DNA from: Candidatus Rokuibacteriota bacterium
GTDB lineage: Bacteria; Methylomirabilota; Methylomirabilia; Rokubacteriales; CSP1-6
Assembly: GCA_003221635.1 (NCBI GenBank)
Contig: QHSR01000253.1
Span: 1-48,276, forward strand
Reading direction: 5' to 3'
Length of the DNA: 48,276 nucleotides
Positions 3,000-44,900 of this stretch are shown one piece after another. The position numbers were made by a program, and so were the translations under genes. The notes beneath the pieces were generated by a model. That model was not told the origin of the DNA, searched no databases, and saw nothing but the letters and a program-made list of their open reading frames with translations. Each line of letters begins with the position of its first letter. Position 1 is the first letter of the stretch.

Positions 3000-4329
3000 C
3001 TAAGCCTTGACGACCGGCCAGGTCTTGTCGATCCAGGTGTACGTCGAGGTCGGCTCTCCCTTGGGCCATCCGGGAGGCGCCGTGATGTTGCGGATCGGGA
3101 TCGTGATGATGCGGGTCGGGTCCAGGATCGGGAACGGGTACTCCGGCACGTTCTTGCTGAAGCCGGTCACCGCGTCCTTGTAACCCTGGTGGTTGTCCGG
3201 GCGGATGTAGACGTAGCCACCGGGACCCGCCATCATCATGCCTTCGAGCAGCGTGATGATCGCGTCGTCGTCGGGCCAGCCACCGCCGATCCTGTTGGCC
3301 TTCTCGATGGCCGACTTCAGCATGTGCGTGGCCATGTATCCGCCCTCGGCCTGCAAGTTCGGGTACTCGTTGAAGCGCGCGTGGTACTTCTCCCCGAAGG
3401 TCTTGTTGAGCGGCCACTTGTCGCCGCCCGGGTACGTGAAATGATAGTTCGAGTGCACGCCCGCCAGAACGCCCTCGGGGTGGTCCTTGCCGAGCGCGTG
3501 CGGCGCGACGCCGAAGGCGATCGTGCTGGCGAACTTCGCCTTCTGGAACATGCCGTAGCGCAGCGCCTGCTTGTACATGGCGACGTAGTCCCCACCCCAC
3601 ACCGACGACACGATCAGGTCGGGCTTCGCCGCGATCGCCTCCGTGATGTGCGAGGCGAAGTCGGTGGTGCCGAGCTTCGGCCAGCCTTCCGAGACCACTT
3701 CGGATTGCGGCATCAGCTTCTTCATGACGACCTTCACGTGGTCGAAGGCGTTCCGCCCATAGGAGTAGTCCGGATGGATGTGGGCGACCCGCTTGGTCTT
3801 GGGCCAGGTCTGGGCGATGCCGAGCGCGCAGGTCACGCCGTCAGCCGACTGCATGTTGGTGATGCGGAAGATGTAGTGTGGGTTCGGCACGGCCTTGTCG
3901 AAGAGGAAGTCGGTGCAGCCGTCGACGAAGATCGTGAGGAGCTTCAGCTCCTCGGCGACGGGACCGAGCGCCGGCGTGTTGCCGCTCGAGGTGATGCCGC
4001 AGAAGAAGTCGATGTTCTCGGAGAGCTTCAGGCGCCGGAGCTCCTTGACGTTCGCGTCGGTGCCGGCGTTCTCGTCGGCCTTGAGGAGCTCGATCTTCCG
4101 CTTGCCCAGGAGCCCGCCCGCCGCGTTGATCTCCTCGCACCGCGGCCGGCCCGGTGAAGAACGTCATGTGACCGATCCGGTAGGGCTTGTCGGGGATGTT
4201 GCCCTTCGGCTTGTCCTGCGCGTGAGCGACCCCCACGAGGGGAATGGCCGCTCCAGTCGATGCGAGCGCGGCGCCGACGCTGACGCCGAGAGTGCCTAGA
4301 AAGTCCCGCCGATTCACTTCGCCTGCCAT
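3000..4329 (-). pseudogene. LIV-type periplasmic binding protein, broken by internal deletion/frameshift
   Basis: The 5' end encodes a Tat signal (NRRDFLGTLGVSVGAALAS, ending in AHAQ) and the start of a type-1 periplasmic binding domain (PYRIGHMTFFTGPAA). At about 4142 the frame changes: continuing the family sequence (CEEINAAGGLLGKRKIELLK) requires another frame, and the roughly 12-17 residues usually found between these two segments are absent. The second frame then runs uninterrupted to the stop at 3000 and contains the rest of the binding domain. The start ATG at 4329 has a strong ribosome-binding site (GGAGGGA at 4335-4341). As written the gene makes only a short product. It is either a genuine recent pseudogene or a sequencing/assembly error; the rest of the sequence shows no decay, which favours a recent event or an error. 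In intact form it would deliver substrate to the LivH-type permease downstream. Confidence 0.85.
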
Positions 4330-41716: not shown

Positions 41717-43434
41717 CAGAACAAAAAATACCGTTGCGCCATCGGCAAGACGCGCGCCGGCTCGCAGGTGAGCACCTGGCCGTCCGCACGCACCTGGTAG
41801 GTCTCGGGATCGACCTCGATCCGCGGAAGCGCGCCGTTGTGGATCATGTCGCGCTTCCCGAGGCCGCGACAGCGCTCGACCGCGACCGCGCGCCGGGTCA
41901 GCCCGAGGCGCTGCGGCACGTCGCCGGCGAGCGCCGCCTTCGAGACGAACGTCAGCGCGGTGGCCCCGACCGTGCGACCGAACGCTCCGAACATGGGGCG
42001 GTAGAGCACCGGCTGCGGCGTCGGGATCGACGCGTTCGGGTCGCCCATTGCGGCCCAGGCGATGAGGCCGCCCTTGACCACCAGCTCCGGCTTGACGCCG
42101 AAGAACGCCGGCTTCCAGAGCACGAGATCGGCCAGCTTGCCGGGCTCGACCGATCCCACGTGCTGGGCCAGGCCGTGCGCGATGGCCGGGTTGATCGTGT
42201 ACTTCGCGACGTAGCGCTTCACGCGCGTGTTGTCGTCGCCGGAGGTCTCGCCCGGGAGCGAACCGCGCTGGCGCTTCATCTTGTCGGCGGTCTGCCAGGT
42301 CCGGATGATCACCTCGCCGATCCGGCCCATCGCCTGCGAGTCGGAGGACATCATGCTGATCGCGCCGAGGTCGTGCAGCACGTCCTCGGCGGCAATCGTC
42401 TCGGCGCGGATGCGCGACTCGGCGAAGGCGAGGTCCTCGGGAATGCGCGCGTTGAGGTGGTGGCAGACCATCAGCATGTCGAGGTGCTCGTCCATCGTGT
42501 TCACCGTGAACGGCATCGTCGGGTTCGTCGACGAGGGCAGGCAGTTCGGCTCGCCACACACCCGGATGATGTCGGGCGCGTGACCACCGCCCGCGCCTTC
42601 GGTGTGATAGGTGTGGATCGTCCGCCCCTTGAAGGCACGGATCGAGTCCTCGACGAACCCGCTCTCGTTGAGCGTGTCGGTGTGGATCGCCACCTGGACG
42701 TCGAGCTCGTCGGCGACGCCGAGGGCGCAGTCGATCGCGGCCGGCGTCGTCCCCCAGTCCTCGTGCAGCTTGAGCCCGATGGCGCCGGCGGCGATCTGCT
42801 CGCGCAACGGCTCGGGGGCGGAGGCGTTGCCCTTGCCGAGGAAGCCCAGGTTGAGCGGGAACGCCTCAGCCGCCTCGAGCATTCGGTGGATGTTCCAGGC
42901 GCCCGGCGTGCACGTGGTCGCGTTGGTCCCGGTCGCGGGACCCGTGCCGCCGCCGACCAGCGTCGTGAGCCCGGCGCTGATCGCCTCGCCGACGAGCTGC
43001 GGGCAGATGAAGTGAATGTGCGTGTCGAGCCCGCCGGCCGTGACGATCTTCCCCTCGCCGGCGATCACCTCGGTGGAGGCGCCGACGACCATCCCCTCCG
43101 TCACACCCGCCATCAGATCCGGATTGCCGGCCTTGCCCACGCCCACGATCCGCCCGTCACGGAGCCCGATGTCGGCCTTCACGATGCCCCAGTGATCGAC
43201 GATGACGGCGTTGGTGACGACGACGTCGAGCGCGCCGGCGGCGCGCGTGGCGCGGACGGACTGGCCCATGCCGTCGCGGATGACCTTGCCCCCGCCGAAT
43301 TTCGCCTCTTCTCCGGGCGTGGTGAGGTCGCGCTCGATCCGGATGAAGAGCTCCGTGTCGGCGAGACGGACACGATCGCCCGTGGTGGGACCGTAGAGAT
43401 CGGCGTACTGCCGGCGGGTCAGCCGGAGCGTCAT
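41716..43434 (-). CDS. ureC: Urease alpha (catalytic) subunit UreC
   Basis: The 572-residue enzyme has all active-site residues: nickel ligands H139 and H141 ([12 protein letters not shown]), carbamylated K222 (GLKLHEDWG), H224, H251 ([13 protein letters not shown]), H277, D365 ([13 protein letters not shown]), and flap cysteine C324 with catalytic H325 ([11 protein letters not shown]). It hydrolyses urea to ammonia and carbamate in the cytoplasm. The ATG at 43434 overlaps the ureB stop as ATGA; an upstream GTG-frame start at 43449 is less likely. The C-terminus AQRYFLF is standard. Confidence 0.98.
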
Positions 43435-43781
43435 GACGGGCGCTCCCACGCCGCGAGCTTTGCCAGCGCCTGGTCGAGGCCGCCGCCCTCGGTCAAGGCG
43501 TTCAGGCCGAAGACCCGGCGCGTGCCAGCCAGCTCGACGAGCGTCACGCGCTTCTCGTCGCCCGGCTCGAAGCGGACCGCGGTGCCGGCCGGCACGTTGA
43601 GTCGCATGCCGAACGCCTGGGCGCGGTCGAAGCGCAGCGCGCGATTGACCTCGAAGAAGTGAAAGTGCGAGCCGATCTGGATCGGCCGGTCGCCCGTGTT
43701 GGTCACCGTCAGCTCCACCGTCCGCCGGCCCTGGTTCGCGATGATCTCGCCCTCACCCAGCAGGTACTCACCCGGAATCAC
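43431..43781 (-). CDS. ureB: Urease beta subunit UreB
   Basis: The 116-residue protein begins at a GTG ([20 protein letters not shown]) and contains [18 protein letters not shown] and [20 protein letters not shown], the typical UreB sequence. The GTG has a GGAGG ribosome-binding site 6 bases upstream and overlaps the GNAT stop as GTGA. It is the structural beta subunit of the urease trimer. The length is normal for a separate UreB. Confidence 0.96.
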
Positions 43782-44365
43782 CGTTGGCCTCCTTCGGTCA
43801 GCAGCCGGTAGTAGAAGGCGCTCGGATCGAGGGTGCCGTCGGCGCTCTCGGCGTATGCGGGGATCGCGCCGGCCAGGCGGTATCCGACCGAGGTATAGAG
43901 TGGCTCGGACGGGTCGCCGCGGCGCGTGTCGAGCACCAGCGTCGTCCGCCCCAAACGTCGCGCGCGATCCTCCACCGCCAGCATGAGCGCGCGCCCCAAC
44001 CCGCGGCGTCGGGCCTTCGTGTGAACGATCACCTTGGCCACCTCCGCGCGATGGCGCGCGTTCGGACGCGTCGCCAGGAGCAGCTGGGCGGTGCCGACGA
44101 CGTCCCCTTCGCCGGCGTCCGCACCCTCGGCGACGCGCGCGACCAGCAGCACACACGTGCCTTCGCGGACCGCCGCCGCGACCGTTTGCCAGTACGCGTC
44201 GGCCTCGGCCTCCGCCAGCGGCGGCAGGAAGCCGACCGACGCGCCGCTGTCGACCGCATCCGTGAGCAGCGCGATCAGCGCCCCCCGATGCCGTTCCACA
44301 CCCTCGCCGCCAAGCGCTTCGATCGCCACCGCCCCGGGGTCCAAGCGCCCCGTCCGCGAAATCAT
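43778..44365 (-). CDS. GNAT-family N-acetyltransferase inside the urease operon
   Basis: The 195-residue protein has a GNAT domain: [20 protein letters not shown] carries the RRGLG(R)A acetyl-CoA loop, followed by [20 protein letters not shown] and [14 protein letters not shown] similar acetyltransferase sits between ureA and ureB in Pseudomonas and Burkholderia relatives, so the placement is known. Its substrate is unknown; the phosphinothricin acetyltransferase-like subgroup acts on small amines. The ATG at 44365 follows the large inverted repeat by about 20 bases. An upstream frame to 44536 is open but passes through the inverted repeat and looks non-coding. Confidence 0.85.
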
Positions 44366-44383
44366 GTCAGGGCCCCGCTGACC

Positions 44384-44567
44384 CGCCGGACGCGGAGCGG
44401 AGGCGGCGGGTGGGTACGGGAGGGGTCGATCGGACCCGTTCCCGCGACGCGGCGGCGGTCGCCGCGCACCCGGATGGAGCCCAGCCGCCGCCGAGCAGCG
44501 CTCGCGTGCCGCGTGGTCCGATGACCCCTCCCGCACCCACCCGCCGCCGTCGGCGTCCCGTCCGGCG
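44384..44567. repeat. Large nested inverted repeat (~184 bases) between ureA and the GNAT gene
   Basis: The arms at 44402-44436 and 44515-44548 are almost perfect complements (35 and 34 bases, one mismatch and one single-base bulge). Outside them CGCCGGACG (44384-44392) pairs with CGTCCGGCG (44559-44567), and inside them GGCGGCGG (44451-44458) pairs with CCGCCGCC (44485-44492). The whole region can fold into one long, nested hairpin in RNA or DNA. It occupies the only sizeable gap (44366-44597) in the otherwise tightly packed urease operon. Confidence 0.85.
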
Positions 44568-44597
44568 AAGTCGTGACCGGACCTCGAGAACGCGACA

Positions 44598-44900
44598 TCA
44601 GCGGATCGGGTGGTGAATGGTGACGAGCTTGGTGCCGTCGGGAAAGGTACCCTCGACCTGCACCTCCTCGAGCATCTCGGGCACTCCTTCCATCACGTCG
44701 TCACGACCGAGGACGGCGAGCCCGGCCTCCATCAGCTCCGAGACGCTCCGTCCGTCGCGGATGCCCTCGAGGACCTCGGCCGTGATGAGCGCCAGCGCCT
44801 CGGGATGGTTGAGCTTGAGGCCGCGCCCGCGGCGCCGGCGCGCAACTTCGGCCGCGGTGAAGATGAGCAGCTTCTCCTGCTCGCGCGGAGTGAGGTGCAT
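44598..44900 (-). CDS. ureA: Urease gamma subunit UreA
   Basis: The 100-residue protein begins [20 protein letters not shown] and contains [20 protein letters not shown] and [20 protein letters not shown], ending in LVTIHHPIR: the full UreA. The ATG has a strong GGAGGTGG ribosome-binding site. It lies 27 bases after the urtE stop, so the transporter and urease genes are probably one transcript. It is separated from the GNAT gene by the inverted repeat. Confidence 0.98.

Follow-up and report, generated by a model that had tools for sequence, protein, structure and literature searches.

The urease genes of the Candidatus Rokuibacteriota bacterium studied here lie on the minus strand in the order ureA, GNAT, ureB and ureC, and the gap between ureA and the GNAT gene holds a long hairpin whose nature is the question raised by this locus. 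An earlier note, made from the sequence alone, had proposed an attenuation or mRNA-processing element, an RNA sensor, or a small MITE-like palindromic element. From the analysis of the window (the whole 48,276-nt stretch of contig QHSR01000253.1) and of related genomes, we suggest, with a probability of roughly 0.86, that the feature is a decayed copy of a Candidatus Rokubacteria MITE family that owes its spread to an IS630-type transposase.

The analysis confirmed the inverted repeat. Without gaps, its arms pair over at most 26 nt (44402-44427 with 44523-44548), at 96% complementarity and a distance of 95 nt, and pairing with small interruptions extends from about 44384 to 44567. The RNA fold was calculated as −152.6 kcal/mol (z = −6.39) on the plus strand and −163.3 kcal/mol (z = −8.38) on the minus strand, and none of 200 shuffled sequences folded equally well on either strand, which is far beyond chance. 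It was the sole hairpin above the scan threshold within the 48-kb window, and the scan of one shuffled window gave none. With small gaps allowed, this pairing accommodates the arms of 34-35 bases described in the earlier note, and the 9-base outer and 8-base inner pairs described with them both fall inside the continuous fold region. The gene calls bear out the placement between ureA and the GNAT gene.

The whole element, of 262 bp, reaches past these arms to about 44341 and 44602. Its left terminal inverted repeat (44341-44366, minus strand, outward CATGATTTCGCGGACGGGGCGCTTGG) was recognized by motif and position weight matrix (PWM) scans, with a PWM score of 18.2, and by the ends of an IS630 element; counted by eye, it has 3 mismatches in 25 to CATGAYTTCGNNGACGGRACACTAG. 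It is followed by the G-rich, copy-specific left arm of the long stem (44384-44427, plus strand), a conserved core of 88 nt (GGACCCGTTCCCG ... TGGAGCCCAGCC ... CGCGTGCCGCGTGGTCC; 44432-44519, plus strand) defined by copy alignments, and the right arm (44523-44567, plus strand); both arms were delimited by the inverted repeat, the fold and the arm pairing across copies. The covariance model matched at 44408-44542. The right terminal inverted repeat (GGACCTCGAGAACGCGACATCAGC; 44579-44602, plus strand) is decayed, with a PWM score of 11.4 versus a control threshold of 5.9, and overlaps the stop codon of ureA (44598-44900, minus strand), which thus lies inside the right end of the element. On the other side, an ATG within the left terminal repeat is the start codon of the GNAT acetyltransferase gene (43778-44365, minus strand; gene call, Pfam PF00583 and genus comparison), and the repeat encodes the first GNAT residues, MISRTGR. 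On the plus strand of the window at 43000-43281, antisense to ureC, Rfam 5_ureB_sRNA (RF02514) matched with 64.5 bits (gathering score, 40), which is probably conservation of the coding sequence.

A search for further copies in the genome and its relatives, suggested in the earlier note, revealed a multicopy family present in many genomes. BLAST of the 201-base region against its own genome gave at least 43 matches with 40 of 254 candidates scored, a count that includes the query itself twice (either strand). When 38 copies were used to build a covariance model, it gave at least 52 matches there with 150 of 11528 candidates scored; 43 spanned model positions 1-136, two of which are internally shortened. 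At E values of 1e-6 or better, the model matched in at least 25 of the 95 genomes of the class, all belonging to one family and to 10 genera, and in all nine genomes of the window's genus; these class-wide counts are lower bounds because 35 candidates were scored per genome under stricter filters. A looser BLAST search (E of 1e-3) gave matches in 47 of 99 genomes, five of them outside the family, where single weak matches at E values of 1e-4 to 9e-4 are put down to chance. Scanning named genomes with a pattern found at least 86 stretches, and 79 of the 80 matches listed were labelled Candidatus Rokubacteria or Rokuibacteriota; the one labelled Chloroflexi (L168) is perhaps a misbinned Rokubacteria contig. 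The element matched nothing in the viral contigs, plasmids or phages searched, which gives no support to such a carrier, and among the papers listed under the name Rokubacteria on structured RNA, repeats and palindromes, no title or opening of an abstract describes it.

Most copies are intergenic, with 8 of 135 lying within called genes. Among 50 own-genome matches examined, 12 lie between convergent genes, 10 in the same direction as their neighbours, 20 antisense to them and 4 between divergent genes, while 3 fall within a called gene and 1 has a gene on a single side. Divergent gaps hold 7 of 122 copies (the 135 less 8 in called genes and 5 at edges) versus 71 of 297 background gaps of at least 60 nt. 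Some copies are arranged or built unusually. Inverted pairs occur about 120-190 bp apart (L106:2479-2861 and L091:2531-2974) and closer in L045 (about 1500-1830). Five of 87 pattern matches (L135, L174, L175, L177 and L180) have the right half and right arm and no left half; three further matches lack the left half owing to a contig end or Ns. L102:2472-2572 is a palindrome in which two 3′ halves form a dimer, L098:2493-2568 is a hairpin rebuilt around one end of the core, and L197:3458-3571, directly after a gene end, lacks a core and forms a long, nearly perfect hairpin closed by a 10-nt loop. In L026 (about 545-633) and L103 (about 1899-1993), a copy splits a phosphonopyruvate/sulfopyruvate-decarboxylase-like gene in frame, in opposite orientations.

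The assignment to the IS630 type is based on the ends. A recognizable outward terminal inverted repeat ending in CTAG is present in a minority of copies, on both sides in some of them, as it is in the window copy. Of 270 flanks, 24 carried the outward motif, first seen beside two copies, at 13 of 16 positions or better; the reverse orientation reached this level once and control stretches never did. A PWM, learned from the same copies that it scored, placed 55 of 267 flanks above a threshold passed by 1.5% of controls. A pattern search allowing up to two mismatches found ends in 16 of 57 genomes of the family, while the reversed pattern gave 0 in 57. Counted by hand, 17 outward-facing pairs of ends are spaced 242-263 bp apart, and others 96, 157, 165 and 1180 bp. 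The pair at 1180 bp (G038:C160) was rejected as a full element, the enclosed gene being unlike a transposase by eye. The terminal repeat became clear only after copies from other genera had been added; an early guess from own-genome copies had scored near chance (means of 9.6 and 9.6 of 17 versus 8.8 for shuffled flanks). It is recognizable in 15 of 86 own-genome flanks versus 40 of 181 elsewhere, and the two-mismatch end pattern has no match in the window's own genome, suggesting that most copies there have lost their ends.

The matching autonomous element was found in another genus. In L304 (G044), ends at 2451-2475 and 3571-3595, spanning 1145 bp, flank an intact gene for a 352-aa transposase that matches NF033545 (IS630; E = 1.4e-73) and DDE_3. 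Ends of identical type lie beside transposase pieces at contig ends in G018, which are partial copies, and the window's own genome retains a 64-aa fragment of the L304-type transposase (73% identical) with a TIR-like end adjoining. The family also has other IS630-type transposases (43-52% identical), whose ends differ but mostly stop in CTAG as well. The window element itself is short (about 262 bp), carries no transposase gene and belongs to a family with at least 52 matches in its own genome. An IS630 transposase would have acted in trans on the MITE ends, inserting them at CTAG.

IS630 elements prefer CTAG. The tetranucleotide was read at 77 of 97 strong ends, although it is part of the motif that found them. 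In a motif-free test with a limit of 130 nt, 90 of 268 core flanks had a CTAG nearby, versus 5 of 258 controls (own genome: 21 of 86 versus 0 of 83). Its frequency in the fetched DNA, a set enriched for elements, is 0.34 per kb, and 212 of 511 occurrences are called stop codons; a neighbouring gene that points into the element has its stop codon exactly at 43 of the 97 strong ends. ureA ends in CGC-TAG in five of the nine genus genomes, and the terminal repeat of G001 starts exactly there. Since CTAG is rare and often a stop codon, insertion at the ureA stop would have left ureA intact, and it would have placed a terminal repeat before the GNAT gene, whose start codon now belongs to the repeat.

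The comparison of orthologous sites is in agreement with mobility. Three of the nine genus genomes carry the element at ureA (G000, G001 and G008), the GNAT gene being a remnant in G001. A different hairpin, of a second family (family II; the element of the window is family I), occupies the site in G006. G007 has the GNAT gene without the element, and its GNAT begins without the MISRTGR residues; G002-G005 have neither, ureA directly preceding ureB. A location named site A is nearly empty (24-31 bp) in three relatives, and site B is filled solely in G000 among seven genomes compared. Among the genomes compared, no clean pair of filled and empty sites with a TA duplication was found. At site A, the hairpins belong to family I in G000, family III in G008 and family II in G006, the end of the neighbouring gene recurs in inverted form as the outer left arm, and G000 and G008 have a common outermost arm around different cores, for which simple insertion is no explanation. 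Core swapping within a fixed hairpin was considered and is weakened by a CTAG lying close to the edges in each of the three families, a pattern compatible with several insertions at a single stop codon. The MITE-like alternative of the earlier note has thus been sustained by multiple copies, IS630-type terminal repeats, CTAG ends and orthologous sites without the element. Movement by the transposase is a putative reading of presence and absence between species, and L304 is a single element in another genus.

The body between the ends has an unusual design. The 88-nt core is conserved among copies and non-palindromic, while the stem sequence varies among copies and yet the arms pair within each copy. 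For 37 of 44 copies, no right arm among the 44 paired better than the copy's own, and one of the seven exceptions has Ns in the left arm. With a threshold of at least 24 Watson-Crick pairs of 34, the arms were paired in 130 of 135 distinct copies, which form 96 arm clusters. Pair changes on both sides filled 130 cells among 38 aligned copies, versus 39.9 in shuffled and at most 51 in slid controls. Between orthologous copies, arm identity was 0.70 and 0.69, compared with 0.70 for third codon positions and 0.61 for random arms, and the arms were still paired. At three orthologous sites, the two cores point in opposite directions (L132/L173, L123/L165 and L026/L103); L145/L171 was not counted, because alignment by eye shows a pair member instead of a flipped orthologue. 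In yeast, template switching is reported to homogenize the arms of inverted repeats and to invert the spacer (PMC8604942), and both outcomes are seen in the Rokubacteria family. Here, template switching is deduced from the comparison of related genomes over long times and for a transposon-derived family. We suggest that the arms of the window element are probably kept alike in this way: polymerase template switching between arms during replication would keep drifting arms complementary, and it could flip the core and duplicate the end of a flanking gene in the opposite arm.

Selection on the fold is also possible. Among arm mismatches, G-U exceeds A-C (129 versus 57; by clusters, 44 versus 14, p = 1e-4), with 144 other mismatches, so the fold of one strand, whether in RNA or in single-stranded DNA, seems to be important, and this excess may favour some selection. 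The reading that competes best with a transposon relic is that the cores are functional units under selection, such as an RNA gene, a protein-binding site or a single-stranded DNA substrate, and that the IS630 ends merely spread them; we regard it as possible but unlikely. Besides the G-U excess, it draws on the finding that orthologous cores have a mean identity of 0.84, versus 0.70 for third codon positions, while the own-genome terminal repeats are mostly gone. The core was higher in 21 of 24 orthologous pairs (51 pairs were found, 25 had a flank match of at least 250 nt and 1 was dropped for too few third positions), third codon positions being an imperfect neutral yardstick and the pairs partly non-independent. 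However, random core pairs are already 0.79 alike (about 79%), so that the excess of orthologues is small, and the opposite orientations at three orthologous sites, the absence from many related genomes and the occurrence of some half copies also speak against selected cores. Nevertheless, transposition alone is insufficient to explain a core likeness that persists after the ends have decayed.

The design of a core within a private stem recurs in two other families, which also favours functional cores. Family II has a nearly invariant 70-nt core (GCG.AGTGGGACCCC...GGGTGACG.AGCC) in copy-specific stems, for example at L204:2290-2410 and L056 (about 1830-2030), with 23 matches in G006, 21 in G008, 10 in G003, 4 in G007, 1-2 each in G001, G002 and G004, and none in G000 or G005. 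Thirty-two copies were read, and in 31 of them the arm energy was −88.7 within the same copy versus −47.3 for crossed arms. Family III has a GGATCCGTGTAGTCAGCG... core in copy-specific stems, for example at L207:1950-2060, with 15 matches in G008 and 6 in G000, some of them merely short pieces; seven copies were read. The terminal repeat of family I is near-absent from the flanks of family II (1 of 63) and family III (0 of 13), but CTAG occurs near 14 of 63 and 4 of 13 flanks, respectively, versus 0 of 63 and 0 of 13 in controls. It is conceivable, though rather doubtful, that Rokubacteria harbour at least three transposon-spread hairpin families with cores of 70-90 nt and self-repairing, copy-specific stems whose cores are in host service and kept by selection. 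If so, the cores would serve as a plentiful small RNA or as scattered protein-binding sites, and selection would outlast the transposon ends.

A cis-acting RNA of the urease operon, an attenuator, processing site or sensor that separates UreA from GNAT-UreBC, could account for the great stability of the fold in the ureA-GNAT gap and for the predominance of G-U over A-C in the arms. However, the same repeat stands beside many unrelated genes in variable orientation, failing to show a fixed association with and orientation to the urease genes, and it is absent at ureA in six of the nine genus genomes. The strand with the G-U advantage runs antisense to the urease mRNA; where both neighbours share a direction, it was antisense in 54 cases and sense in 31. 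Rfam gave no match on the element at E values up to 1 in the window region and 19 other loci with copies. Because of the dispersal and variable orientation, we reject a urease-specific regulatory RNA as very improbable, and the attenuation, processing and sensor roles proposed in the earlier note are unsupported. Under our preferred reading of a decayed IS630-type MITE, any putative effect on the expression of ureA versus GNAT-ureBC would be a by-product.

REPIN or REP elements moved by a RAYT (Y1) transposase would likewise be palindromic, extragenic and biased in fold toward one strand. However, Y1_Tnp (PF01797) was unmatched in 18 of 20 genomes searched, including all nine of the genus, the two genomes with PF01797 (G014 and G028) give no covariance-model match to the element, and the terminal repeats are of the IS630 type; we therefore reject this origin as extremely improbable. 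Metagenome assembly can create palindromes as chimeras. The palindromic assembly artefact that the earlier note had allowed for is contradicted by G001 and G008, whose orthologous copies at this site have diverged arms, and by the presence of the family in many separately assembled genomes, and its probability is practically negligible.

Several known repeats resemble the Rokubacteria family, as far as the available parts of the sources describe them. The pneumococcal RUP is a non-coding repeat for which the IS630-Spn1 transposase has been proposed as the mover because of their alike terminal repeats, and the target sites of both contain TA (PMC2229807). RUP and the Rokubacteria family are alike in being short non-coding repeats with IS630-type terminal repeats. 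However, RUP is 107 bp, whereas in the Rokubacteria family the ends are about 242-263 bp apart and often fall on stop codons, and the body consists of an 88-nt core with copy-specific arms, a trait that those parts do not mention for RUP. The Correia/NEMIS elements of Neisseria are MITEs with TA at their ends and long-stem transcripts for which RNase III cleavage has been proposed (PMC2229807); they have 24-bp terminal repeats and lengths of about 107 and 155 bp, and a conserved core within a private stem is not mentioned in the same parts. Rickettsia palindromic elements are palindromic repeats lying in frame within genes (PMC10969869), as does the Rokubacteria family at one orthologous site in a decarboxylase-like gene, although most Rokubacteria copies are intergenic. 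REPINs are dispersed extragenic hairpins (PMC3116915); they are REP doublets associated with RAYT, whereas the element-rich Rokubacteria genomes tested have no RAYT and the ends are of the IS630 type. We consider family I to be new, with the long private stem and the constrained core as unusual traits.

What had been supposed to be a urease switch is, by this analysis, more probably one copy of a transposon-derived repeat that is abundant in a lineage known here from metagenome assemblies. The locus also illustrates that an element inserting at CTAG can hit stop codons without damage to the gene and can supply the start codon of the next one. Furthermore, the family offers a natural case in which compensatory-looking pair changes, usually taken as proof of a functional RNA, may stem from template switching of DNA.
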